Of a DNA stretch of 64,000 bases, positions 42,449 to 46,657 are shown piece by piece; position 1 is the first letter of the stretch; each line of letters opens with the position of its first letter. This stretch comes from Clostridia bacterium. GTDB lineage: Bacteria > Bacillota > Clostridia > Oscillospirales > CAG-382. The notes beneath the pieces were generated by a model. The model was not told where the DNA came from. It made no database searches and worked only from the letters and a program-made list of their open reading frames with translations. Position numbers and translations under genes: made by a program. The DNA lies in assembly GCA_017436675.1 (NCBI GenBank), contig JAFSCS010000020.1:1-64000 (forward strand). The letters are read 5' to 3'.

Positions 42449-44431
42449 ATGAAAAAAGCGTTTATTTTAGCTTTATTATGTCTTATTTCGCTATGTCTTC
42501 CGTTTGTTTTGACGGGATGCGGCGGTGATGAGATATCGGGCGAGTCGACTGATGCTTCGGTGGAGGTATCGGTTCCCGAGCCGACCGATCCGATCGTTGT
42601 CGAGAACGGGTTGGCTGTTTACAAAAAGAACGACGCGCCGTTGAAGATCGCTCAATTCGCTGACCTTCATTTTGGTATAGAGGGTAACGCTTACCACAAC
42701 AACAAGCTCGAGCGCACGAAGGACTATATGCGCTACGTTGCCGAGGTCGAAAAGCCCGACCTGATCGTTTGCTCCGGTGACAACGTGATGTCCACGGGTG
42801 TTCAAAAGCTCGCTGAGTTCGTTGAGCTGATGGACAGCCTCAAGACGCCTTGGGTTTTTATCTATGGCAACCACGATGCCGAAAACAACTCCGAGGGCTA
42901 CAGCAAAAAGGAGATGTCGGAATATCTCGACACCTGCGACTCGGAATATCTTCTTTATGACAGCGGTTACGTTGAAGCCGAAAACAACAGATACGGCAAC
43001 TTCTCCGTTTCGATACTCAACGAAAAAGGAACGAAGCTTCTCGGTGCGATCCTGTTTTTCGATTCGGGCATCTATGACGGTGCCGTCAAATCGTATGAAT
43101 CGATCACAAAGGGACAGATCGATTGGTATAGATCCGAGATCGACAAGCTCGATTCTCTCTATATCGGCGAGGGCGTGATGCCGTCGATCGTTTTTTCACA
43201 CATTCAGCTTCCCGAATACTATACTGCATACAAAAAAGCGTTAAACGGAAACGGTGCTGAATTTATCATCAAGCAGCCGCTCACGTCGGGCGAGATCGAG
43301 GAGATCAAGACAGGCGGGCCGACAAACGAAAACACGGGACTTTTCGACGTGATGAAGGAAAAGAAGAGCACGGTCGCGTTCTTCTGCGGTCACGCGCACC
43401 TTTCGACGTTCCAAGTGAAGATGGACGGCATCGTGCTCGGATTCGGACCGCAATCAGGATTCTCGACGCTTTTCGCCGACAACGATATGCCGCGCCGTAC
43501 ATACGTCTACTCGTTCGATGAATCCCTCTCGTTCACAACTAACGCTTGTGTTGAGGACGGAAGCACGCTCGGGTTGACCTACAGCGGTACGTTCGACGAC
43601 TCGGGAGCTTATGACGAGGCGACGGGCAAATACACCGTCACCTATAATTTCAATTTCGGAAACACGATCGAGCTTGCATACAACGGCGTTCGTCTCACGA
43701 AGGAGAACACGACGTTCACGGGCAGCTTCAAGAACATCACCTCGCCCGAATGGAAGGCAGGCTTCTATTCTCCCAACGGAAAGACGATCGTTTTCGACGG
43801 TCTCACGACGAGAAGCTGTACGTTCACGTACGATCCAAAAGCAAAAACGCTCGACATCTCGATGAAGGACGTTGAGGTCGACCCCGACGCGCCAACGAGC
43901 ATCAAGTTCAAGACTCACAACTCCGACGCAGGTGCCGATGCGATCGGTCTTTGGACGACGGCAGGCACGAAGATCAAGACGGTCACCGATGCTCAAACGG
44001 GTGCGGGCAACTGGATCGGTAACGGCTGGAGATATTACGTCGTTTGCGATTCGGAGGGCAAGATCGCATATGCCGTACAATTCCCGATCAGCGGATACGG
44101 CGGACCTGACGGCTCAAGCTACTACACGCATTTCGTATATTCAAGCGACTATAAGACCAACCCCGCAATAACCACGCTCGACGGATTTGCTAACGACTGG
44201 GCGGCAGGCGGTATCGGTTATACTCTTTATGAGATACAGATCCCCGAGGGCGGATTTGCGTTCACGGGACACGGAACGGCGATATTCGAGATGATCGATA
44301 TGCTTTCACAAGGTGTCGTTGAAAATTATGACCTCGGAAACATCAACACACGTTCTATCTACAACAATAACATCAGAGTATCATACGATCTCGGAGAAAA
44401 AACTATCTCGATAACGACTGTCGAAGACTGA
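42449..44431 (+). CDS. Lipoprotein metallophosphoesterase
   Basis: 660 aa from ATG 42449 behind AAAGGAG. Signal peptide with lipobox (CLPFVLTGC), then a Ser/Asp/Glu/Pro-rich linker. The calcineurin-like phosphoesterase blocks are in order: FADLHFG (DxH), VCSGDNVMS (GDN), FIYGNHDAEN (GNHD), FSHIQLPEY (H) and FCGHAHLSTF (GHxH). About 250 beta-rich residues (~390-650) follow, including a possible carbohydrate-binding region (FNFGNTIELAYNGVRLTKEN). It acts at the outer face of the membrane; the substrate (phosphoester, nucleotide or sphingolipid type) is unknown. Confidence 0.85.
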   Translation: MKKAFILALLCLISLCLPFVLTGCGGDEISGESTDASVEVSVPEPTDPIVVENGLAVYKKNDAPLKIAQFADLHFGIEGNAYHNNKLERTKDYMRYVAEVEKPDLIVCSGDNVMSTGVQKLAEFVELMDSLKTPWVFIYGNHDAENNSEGYSKKEMSEYLDTCDSEYLLYDSGYVEAENNRYGNFSVSILNEKGTKLLGAILFFDSGIYDGAVKSYESITKGQIDWYRSEIDKLDSLYIGEGVMPSIVFSHIQLPEYYTAYKKALNGNGAEFIIKQPLTSGEIEEIKTGGPTNENTGLFDVMKEKKSTVAFFCGHAHLSTFQVKMDGIVLGFGPQSGFSTLFADNDMPRRTYVYSFDESLSFTTNACVEDGSTLGLTYSGTFDDSGAYDEATGKYTVTYNFNFGNTIELAYNGVRLTKENTTFTGSFKNITSPEWKAGFYSPNGKTIVFDGLTTRSCTFTYDPKAKTLDISMKDVEVDPDAPTSIKFKTHNSDAGADAIGLWTTAGTKIKTVTDAQTGAGNWIGNGWRYYVVCDSEGKIAYAVQFPISGYGGPDGSSYYTHFVYSSDYKTNPAITTLDGFANDWAAGGIGYTLYEIQIPEGGFAFTGHGTAIFEMIDMLSQGVVENYDLGNINTRSIYNNNIRVSYDLGEKTISITTVED

Positions 44432-44437
44432 AATATC

Positions 44438-44928
44438 AAAAATATCCCCTGCTATGCGTGTTATCCGTTAAGGATAACACGCATAACTAAGTTTGCCCTT
44501 ATGGGCAAGTGAAGTTTACTTCGTAAGTGAAGTTATCCTGCGGATAGTGAAGTTTTGCCTATGGCAAAGTGGGCAAACTTAACTTCACTTGTGCGTAGCA
44601 CAAACTTCACTGCGTAGCAACTTCACTTTTGCGTTAGCAAAAACTTCACTAACAGAAAAAAGAGCAAGCACATAAGGTTTTATCCTTGCGTGTTTGCTCT
44701 TGTTTTTTCTTTTGTCGATATGTCAACTTCGTTGACTCGATATGCCTTCGCTACGCTCAGGCTCGATATATTGTCGTTTTGCTCCAATTCGATATGAGAT
44801 AAATCCCTCGATATCGAGTGCGTCAGCACATATCGAACGCCGCAGGCGTATATCGAAAATCCCGCAAGGGATTTATCTCGATGCGTGTTCTCCGTTAAGG
44901 AGAACACGCTAAGCAAGGGGATATTTTT
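44438..44928. mobile_element. MITE-like element of hairpin arrays with terminal inverted repeats
   Basis: The ends (44438-44462 and 44903-44928) are inverted copies of each other, with few mismatches. Each extends into its own hairpin (gtgttatcc/ggataacac on the left, gtgttctcc/ggagaacac on the right; the a-t pair is swapped for c-g). Between them lie two modules. Module 1 has GTGAAGTT at 44509, 44527 and 44547 and its reverse AACTTCAC at 44581, 44603, 44619 and 44642, with small hairpins between. Module 2 has TCGATAT at 44715, 44737, 44763, 44789 and 44808 and ATATCGA at 44811, 44830 and 44850. A central hairpin (44654-44712) separates them. No ORF. It fills the gap between two convergent genes. 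Confidence 0.65.
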
Positions 44929-46657
44929 ATTCGGACATAGGAAGATCCGATATCGTTTTTTCAATAAACTCCGCGCGGTCATGGACGAATTTTTTCAAAT
45001 AATTCAGCTGCTTTTCGAAGCTGTTTTCTGCACTGCACCATTTTGATTGGAAGCCCGCGCGTTTGTCCCAGATATCCCAAACGGTGAAGTTTTGCTGCTG
45101 TGAGCCGCCGTTAAGTATTTCACCGTATTTGTCGATCGTATCGCTCGTCGTTGACAATATCTGCTCTTTCAGGCTCTCCCATCTCGCCTTGAAGCGTTCG
45201 CAAAACTCTTTATCGCGGAAGAGATAGGTGCACCAGTTATAGCTGACGTATGCGCCCTTTTCGTCGCTTCCGTAGGTCGCGAGGTCGTCATAATTCTTGT
45301 TATCGTGGGAGAAGTTCCCGAACGCGAGGTCGAAATCCCAATATGCCGCCATCTTTATTTTCCCGCCCTTTTCCTTCACAAGAAAGCAAGAACGACGGAA
45401 GCAGGAATCGATATTATACGAAAGCTCGTGCAAAATTATCCAATCGATGAAGCTGTCGACGTCGATATATTCCTCGTACCCCTCACCGCTTTTGATCGCC
45501 GCCTCGGCTTTTTCGAAATAGTCGGTGATGAATTTCTTTTGGGCGTCGGTTATTTCGGTGTAGTCGGGTGATTTGAAGGTCGCAAATTTCACGAGATGGC
45601 TTTTCGTGTGGAAATAATGCACTCCGTTTACGTCGCCGGTCGGTGCCATTCCGCCGACCTCGAGCAGATAATCCGTATCGACCTCGGTACTGCCCTCCTC
45701 GAGCTCCATTCGTCCGTTCGCCACCTCCATATGCTCGCCGAGTGTATAGACGCCCTGATATTCGCCGTTGACGAACAGATCGACGGGGTATGCGTGAGGC
45801 GACCACGACACGCTGTCGAGCACTCTTCCGAGCTCGTATGCAAGTGTATTGCGGATGAGCGATTTGTCGGCGTAGTTGGCAAGCAATATCCAATCGCGGT
45901 TGTCGTCCATTCCGAGAAGCGACGCCTTTTCGTCGAGCTTTATTTTATAGGGCTTTTTCTCCCAATTCCAAGTGGAGTTGCCTCTTCCTCTTATCGTCCC
46001 GCCGACGGTCGAAACGGAATATTCGCCCTCGAACGAGCGGTCGAGCGAGAAGGTCATTGTCATCGTTTCGTTTCTGTCGATCTCGTCGATGCTTTTTCCG
46101 TCACCAAGCGTGATATTGATTATCGGAAGCTCATAGACCGCTCTGTCGACTATCACGGCATACGTTCTAACGAGTCCGTTTTCGTCGGTCACTCGGCAGA
46201 CGAGCTCCTTCGTCAGATCGACGCTGCCGTCGACGTTTTTCGCCGAAAGCTCAGCCACACCGCCGCTGCACTCGAGCTCGAGGTTGCAGCGTCTCAACGT
46301 TGGCAGATCGATGTAATTATAGTAATCGAGCTTCAAAACGGCACTGCGCCGTCCCTCGTCGATAACGAACGAAAAGTCTTTTTGAAGCGCGTTGTTTTTC
46401 GCTTTGCAAAGCTTTATCTCAAGCAGCATCGCCTCACCCTCGGGCTCGGGCGGTGGATTTTCGGGGAGCGTCTCCTCGGGCTCGGACACCTCGTGCGAGT
46501 TATCGATGCTTTCGTCGATCGACGCATCTGCGCTCACCGTGCTCTCGGTTATGGTAGACTCAGCGCTGCTTTCGTCCGTTGAGAAGTCTCCGCCGTCACA
46601 CGCAGACAAGGCAAAAACCAACAAAAATGCGATCAAAAACAATATTATTCGTTTCAT
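44927..46657 (-). CDS. CotH-kinase-domain lipoprotein
   Basis: 576 aa. Lipoprotein signal (FLLVFALSAC) and a long Ser/Glu/Pro-rich linker (to ~75), then a beta-rich domain (~80-180) and a CotH domain (~185-560). CotH hallmarks are TIRGRGNSTWNWEKKPYKIKLD, DWILLANYADKSLIRN, LGEHMEV and AAYWDFDLAFG. CotH proteins are atypical kinases, first known from spore-coat phosphorylation. This one is outside the cell and probably modifies surface proteins or binds polysaccharide. The stop codon overlaps the right end of the hairpin element. Confidence 0.85.
   Translation of the reverse strand: MKRIILFLIAFLLVFALSACDGGDFSTDESSAESTITESTVSADASIDESIDNSHEVSEPEETLPENPPPEPEGEAMLLEIKLCKAKNNALQKDFSFVIDEGRRSAVLKLDYYNYIDLPTLRRCNLELECSGGVAELSAKNVDGSVDLTKELVCRVTDENGLVRTYAVIVDRAVYELPIINITLGDGKSIDEIDRNETMTMTFSLDRSFEGEYSVSTVGGTIRGRGNSTWNWEKKPYKIKLDEKASLLGMDDNRDWILLANYADKSLIRNTLAYELGRVLDSVSWSPHAYPVDLFVNGEYQGVYTLGEHMEVANGRMELEEGSTEVDTDYLLEVGGMAPTGDVNGVHYFHTKSHLVKFATFKSPDYTEITDAQKKFITDYFEKAEAAIKSGEGYEEYIDVDSFIDWIILHELSYNIDSCFRRSCFLVKEKGGKIKMAAYWDFDLAFGNFSHDNKNYDDLATYGSDEKGAYVSYNWCTYLFRDKEFCERFKARWESLKEQILSTTSDTIDKYGEILNGGSQQQNFTVWDIWDKRAGFQSKWCSAENSFEKQLNYLKKFVHDRAEFIEKTISDLPMSE

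Follow-up and report, generated by a model that had tools for sequence, protein, structure and literature searches.

For three decades, S23 proteins have been known as passengers of 23S rRNA intervening sequences (IVSs), and their function is not settled. The Coxiella IVS, which has been called a selfish element, carries short word repeats (heptamer GACAGAT) upstream of its gene; the origin and function of IVSs are described as unclear, and their ORF was once proposed to be a component of mobility (PMC4990558). S23 proteins (PF05635) and the DGR protein Avd are homologues (PMC10053308). Gut-1 (RF01706) is listed among candidate noncoding RNAs (PMC2864571), and Rfam models 77 nt of it, as an RNA that in 2010 was known only from human gut samples.

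Here we describe a locus in a 64,000-nt stretch of DNA (the window) from a clostridial gut bacterium that is probably a non-autonomous, double-headed copy of a dispersed, S23-linked mobile element, lying in the loop of a bidirectional terminator; S23 is its candidate partner in mobility. The family is apparently undescribed: it is IVS-like in its working but not in its location, and it contains Gut-1 but is more than Gut-1. No earlier description was found in the openly accessible journal papers searched for Gut-1 function, S23 with repeats or insertions in terminator loops, which is not proof of novelty.

Structure of the comb locus

The locus lies between convergent genes for a metallophosphoesterase (PF00149) and a CotH-family protein (PF08757), and consists of the following parts.

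44438–44450, no strand: left arm of the palindromic host terminator (AAAAATATCCCCT), which the insertion splits
44453–44454, no strand: TA at the left junction, candidate target duplication
44453–44485, plus strand: end hairpin 1, TATGCGTGTTATCC-GTTAA-GGATAACACGCATA
44484–44558, plus strand: match to Rfam RF01706 (Gut-1), 54.5 bits (cut-off 50), 5′ half of comb 1 only
44486–44655, plus strand: comb 1, spine GTGAAGTT (three) and AACTTCAC (four) with side hairpins
44656–44710, no strand: central hairpin, terminator-like, with A/T tracts
44711–44882, minus strand: comb 2, spine TCGATAT (five) and ATATCGA (three) with side hairpins
44883–44909, minus strand: end hairpin 2, GCGTGTTCTCC-GTTAA-GGAGAACACGC
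44910–44911, no strand: TA at the right junction
44916–44928, no strand: right arm of the palindromic host terminator (AGGGGATATTTTT), overlapping the CotH stop codon

Both modules follow what we call a comb plan: W-hairpin-W-hairpin-W, a turn, then rcW-hairpin-rcW-hairpin-rcW, where the spine word W has 7–8 nt and rcW is its reverse complement. If W paired with rcW, the predicted result would be a chain of four-way junctions. The original prediction had read the words and hairpins from the letters alone, and they are there: GTGAAGTT at 44509, 44527 and 44547, AACTTCAC at 44581, 44603, 44619 and 44642, the five and three words of the second module, every side hairpin it named and the terminator-like hairpin between the modules (44656–44705). 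Its enclosing terminal inverted repeats of about 24 bp did not survive. The outer repeat is a perfect 13 bp (44438–44450/44916–44928) and, because its sequence differs at every genomic copy, it is best read as the arms of the host terminator rather than as element ends. The element itself is bounded by the TA dinucleotides (44455–44909), and its own ends are two hairpins, GCGTGTT.TCCGTTAAGGA.AACACGC. It has no ORF and no tails, and its combs face each other across the central hairpin; the window copy is two element heads fused tail to tail, each module being one head. No promoter-like site was found in 44300–45050.

TCGATAT is not rare in itself, with 17 other copies in the window; what is exceptional is the arrangement. 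A scan for word arrays (a run of one word, then a run of its reverse complement) picked out these two modules and nothing else in the 64 kb; 320 kb of shuffled sequence gave no hit. The strong folding that had been expected is also borne out. As DNA, the segment folds at −129.6 kcal/mol, compared with −56.3 ± 5.0 for dinucleotide shuffles (z = −14.8; 0 of 100 shuffles as good), and each module folded alone as RNA lies far below its shuffles on both strands (z of −7.9/−5.6 and −4.6/−3.8). Across 93 distinct combs, a hairpin of at least 4 bp occurs in 327 of 442 inter-word segments (70 of 442 when shuffled), with loops mostly of 3–4 nt. The spine words of these combs are of more than a dozen kinds, each matched by its own reverse complement in the opposite half, which amounts to covariation between the comb halves.

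Copies, S23 genes and insertion sites

Neither a lone copy nor a shuffle-like fold was found: similarity searches in the assembly of the window (G000; 1.535 Mb, 54% complete) gave more than 20 places that resemble either module. Stretches of 119–154 bp of the left module recur at unrelated loci with 97–99% identity. Most full copies have about 370 bp and no ORF, and run from an end hairpin (GCGTGTTATCCTTAACGGAGAACACGC) through comb, central hairpin and tail to the end motif again, in imperfect inverted form. This motif, written CGTGTTNTYCTTARCGGAGAA, has 25 matches in the genome and none in a reversed control; pairs lie about 310–350 bp apart, and the inverted ends are imperfect over about 21–25 bp. 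Two comb types, with spines GTGAAGTT and TCGATAT, have ends and tail in common, and the window copy joins one of each. Copies sit at the centre of palindromes that resemble bidirectional terminators and are different at every locus, the flanking arms being more complementary to their own partner (mean 12.0) than in crossed pairs (5.7). TA stands at every left junction read but at only about half of the right junctions, and the window copy has both; it is no more than a candidate target duplication. The predicted ‘highly structured non-autonomous mobile element’ is therefore well supported, by near-identical ORF-less copies dispersed over unrelated loci, by recurrent ends and by full-length relatives that carry a protein gene.

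Many of the copies in this assembly stand at contig ends (C4, C16, C21, C26, C31, C34, C35 and C41), where they probably broke the assembly, and flank arms pair between contigs, for example the end of C21 with the start of C41. In gut Clostridia, comb elements would thus be one reason why assemblies break. A further comb type, with spine GCGATAT and a hairpin reading GTGTCCACAGAAGC, occurs on contig C42 (L022 and L049), with a longer tail common to places about 32 kb apart.

Only one gene family recurs directly beside combs (67 loci), the S23 or 23S-rRNA-IVP four-helix-bundle proteins (identified by TIGR02436, 102.5 bits; solved relative 2rld). The one S23 gene in G000 directly follows a Gut-1 comb. 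From named genomes of gut Clostridia and Oscillospiraceae (mostly ruminant), 80 S23 loci were chosen by the protein alone. A comb lies within 500 nt upstream of the gene in 47 of them and downstream in 1, compared with 0 of 67 for a control stretch; 33 lack a comb by the strict test. At most loci the comb ends 14–100 nt before the S23 start. The nearest S23 genes (72–94% identical) have GTGAAG combs (L176–L183), and TCGATA combs stand directly upstream of S23 in L189 and L191, so both spine words of the window are found at S23 genes. Comb 1 is 76–79% identical to the combs upstream of S23 in L176, L179 and L180, and half of comb 2 is 79% identical to that in L191.

The full-length form is 5′ hairpin, comb, S23 gene and tail. 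In L141 and L146 a conserved tail beginning GGGTTTGGGC starts at the S23 stop codon, and in copies without an ORF the same tail comes after the comb or the central hairpin, those of G000 still having the TAA; ORF-less elements therefore look like S23 elements that have lost the gene. The central hairpin of single-headed copies occupies the place of the S23 gene in full-length relatives. In three loci (L181, L182 and L184) a second copy of the comb's 5′ half, 93–99% identical, immediately follows S23, and solo 5′ halves exist. Inverted short-word arrays enclose 29 of 91 S23 genes, with a comb or none, compared with 9 of 300 control ORFs. With pI values of 7.7 and 6.1, these S23 proteins are not basic, unlike a typical general nucleic-acid binder.

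Comb-less S23 genes between inverted short-word arrays were seen in L121, L123, L125, L133, L136, L138 and L143, and L138 runs on downstream into a long tandem repeat. IMG/VR gave one clear case, a putative viral contig (L256) whose S23 gene has a comb upstream.

Combs prefer particular sites. More than a third of the distinct combs (58 of 155) begin no more than 150 nt downstream of a tRNA gene, where about 2% would be expected; 14 kinds of tRNA are involved, and the comb comes after the tRNA terminator. The second recurrent site is the 3′ end of genes for RlmD-type rRNA methyltransferases (L018, L177, L179, L189, L191, L197, L209, L272, L279, L283, L284, L288 and L300–L304). Filled rlmD sites, unlike empty ones, have a hairpin in which the first arm is the sequence coding for HVE(S/T)(I/V)V and the second arm is its reverse complement. 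The mean hairpin score is 13.0 at filled sites (n = 17) and 4.1 at empty sites (n = 30) in a comparison between species, and the second arm fits the codons of its own host best at 13 of the 17. Several different spine words occupy the same rlmD position, which argues for repeated entry.

In G003, two or three tandem combs follow one tRNA gene (L083, L084 and L086), each preceded by its own terminator, and their spacer has a T-arm-like stretch, AAGAGTTCGAATTCATACGC. Other combs (L096, L097 and L091, in G028 and G003) follow only the 3′ part of a tRNA, as at the borders of genomic islands.

Folded DNA, folded RNA and the search for an engine

The loops of the side hairpins differ between the comb halves. 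In the 5′ half, 93 loops are TNC or TNNC and 1 is GNA; in the 3′ half, 81 are GNA or GNNA and none is TNC. The 47 combs oriented by their S23 gene repeat the rule (41:0 and 35:1), with a closing C–G pair in 72 of 77 cases. Read as its reverse complement the rule is unchanged, so it holds on both DNA strands, and published hyperstable DNA mini-hairpins have GNA and GNNA loops with G–C pairs (PMC4686876). We infer that selection has acted on folded DNA, of which a loop rule identical on both strands would be a rare sign.

Selection on an RNA fold would instead make the comb a transcribed structure (Gut-1 RNA, a stabiliser of 3′ untranslated regions or a reinforced terminator) and its dispersal incidental. 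We consider this unlikely. The match of comb 1 to a candidate noncoding RNA (PMC2864571) lies above the cut-off, combs stand after genes and tRNAs, and the RNA folds reach z values of −4 to −8. The fold on the S23-coding strand is slightly the more stable in 34 of 47 combs as RNA (30 of 47 in the DNA model), which leaves room for an RNA role. However, the Gut-1 model spans half of the structure and matches both halves on opposite strands, a self-reverse-complementary loop rule has no reason in a one-strand RNA, and many four-base loops are GNNA but not GNRA (for example, GTCA and GATA). The region has no promoter-like site, and near-identical copies lie at unrelated loci. G–T and A–C mismatches, which could tell RNA from DNA, number 4 and 1, too few for the test. 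The ‘structured RNA’ of the original prediction is thus half right, in that Gut-1 covers the 5′ half of comb 1, whereas the loop rule points to DNA at least equally. For comb 2, no Gut-1 match was reported at the gathering cut-off (50 bits). Among genomes of the same family, 51 of 63 have a Gut-1 match, as do 39 of 293 in the class, so the motif is no longer confined to unclassified human-gut DNA (PMC2864571).

An ordinary MITE would have its end hairpins or imperfect inverted ends acted on by a DDE transposase, with duplication of TA and the comb as a passenger. The inverted ends fit, as does the TA that about half of the G000 copies have on either side, and yet we find this explanation quite improbable: no such transposase was seen at the element ends in G000 (54% complete), IS630/Tc1-like DDE_3 is present in 1 of 63 family genomes, and the tRNA- and rlmD-site combs of other genera have completely different end hairpins. 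A Y1/RAYT partner was likewise rejected (18 of 63 genomes; PF01797 absent from G000, G003, G004, G007 and G028). In the near-complete, comb-rich genomes G004, G007, G027, G028 and G029, reverse transcriptase, Y1 and DDE_3 are all absent. Because none of the three follows the element, S23 is the best candidate partner, in a putative biochemical role.

The closeness of comb and S23 start could also mean that the comb is a 5′ leader of the S23 mRNA, bound by its own product, and that ORF-less copies are decoys or relics. This would be surprising, as most combs have no S23 gene (one gene and more than 20 combs in G000), the 5′ half is repeated after the gene at several loci, and the insertion-linked hairpins at rlmD and tRNA sites go unexplained. 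A retroelement using a borrowed reverse transcriptase, of group IIC intron or DGR type, is hardly credible, despite the homology of S23 to Avd and the habit of group IIC introns of inserting after terminators, which are also the targets here, because RVT_1 (PF00078) occurs in only 13 of 63 family genomes and is absent from G000 and from all five near-complete genomes named above. CRISPR and a plain terminator, both dismissed at the outset, do misfit the word and hairpin pattern and the S23 link, and attC was rejected on such grounds as well.

Under the S23-linked mobile element that we favour, the S23 protein of full-length copies would move ORF-less copies in trans. The moving or recognised form may be a folded single strand of the comb, whose linked four-way junctions and hyperstable 3′-half GNA hairpins could form on either strand. 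Entry would occur at DNA hairpins, and the chemistry may be that of host replication or repair enzymes, given that neither reverse transcriptase nor any transposase tested tracks the element. At rlmD, the second arm may be a copy of the target made during entry or the product of later selection. For the window copy, a probable origin is the joining of two elements, with GTGAAGTT and TCGATAT spines, at their central hairpins, with loss of both tails; both outer ends would then be ‘left’ ends, with the host terminator arms retained. Among the loci compared, no transposition event, excised form or same-species pair of empty and filled sites was seen.

More tentatively, comb elements may form a class of mobile DNA without a transposase, integrase or reverse transcriptase of its own, in which S23 and a strand-symmetric DNA comb insert beside DNA hairpins and a new, target-derived hairpin is made on entry. 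If so, rRNA intervening sequences would be one branch of this class. The function of S23 becomes testable once the protein is linked to a defined repeated structure and to particular places in the genome (terminators, the 3′ flanks of tRNA genes and the 3′ ends of rlmD), and the Rfam Gut-1 ‘RNA’ would be recast as half of a mobile element.

Comparison with known systems

Whereas Gut-1 is modelled as one half, the comb is a longer, strand-symmetric structure, tied to an S23 gene and found in many gut Clostridia. Avd, an accessory protein of DGRs, has a homologous four-helix-bundle fold, but comb elements have neither a reverse transcriptase nor a template or variable repeat. Like MITEs and REP/BIME sequences with their RAYT (Y1), comb elements are short, dispersed, multicopy, palindromic and ORF-less, with terminal inverted ends and a partner protein encoded elsewhere; unlike them, they abound in several genomes that lack a DDE_3 or Y1 partner, and their candidate partner is S23. 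The double-hairpin elements and GC clusters of fungal mitochondria are mobile hairpin DNA with no obvious enzyme, but they have no spine words or partner protein and are much simpler than combs.

The IVSs of Leptospira and Coxiella are also close in kind, and like combs they can have short repeated words upstream of the gene, as in Coxiella. Full-length comb relatives, although not the window copy, carry the same S23 gene (PF05635/TIGR02436), and both elements replace or enlarge a hairpin loop with complementary borders, which at the window are those of the host hairpin at 44438–44450/44916–44928. An IVS, however, lies in a hairpin of the rRNA gene, whereas the window element lies between metallophosphoesterase and CotH genes; comb elements occupy terminators, tRNA 3′ flanks and rlmD 3′ ends, have a comb of side hairpins and reach many copies per genome.
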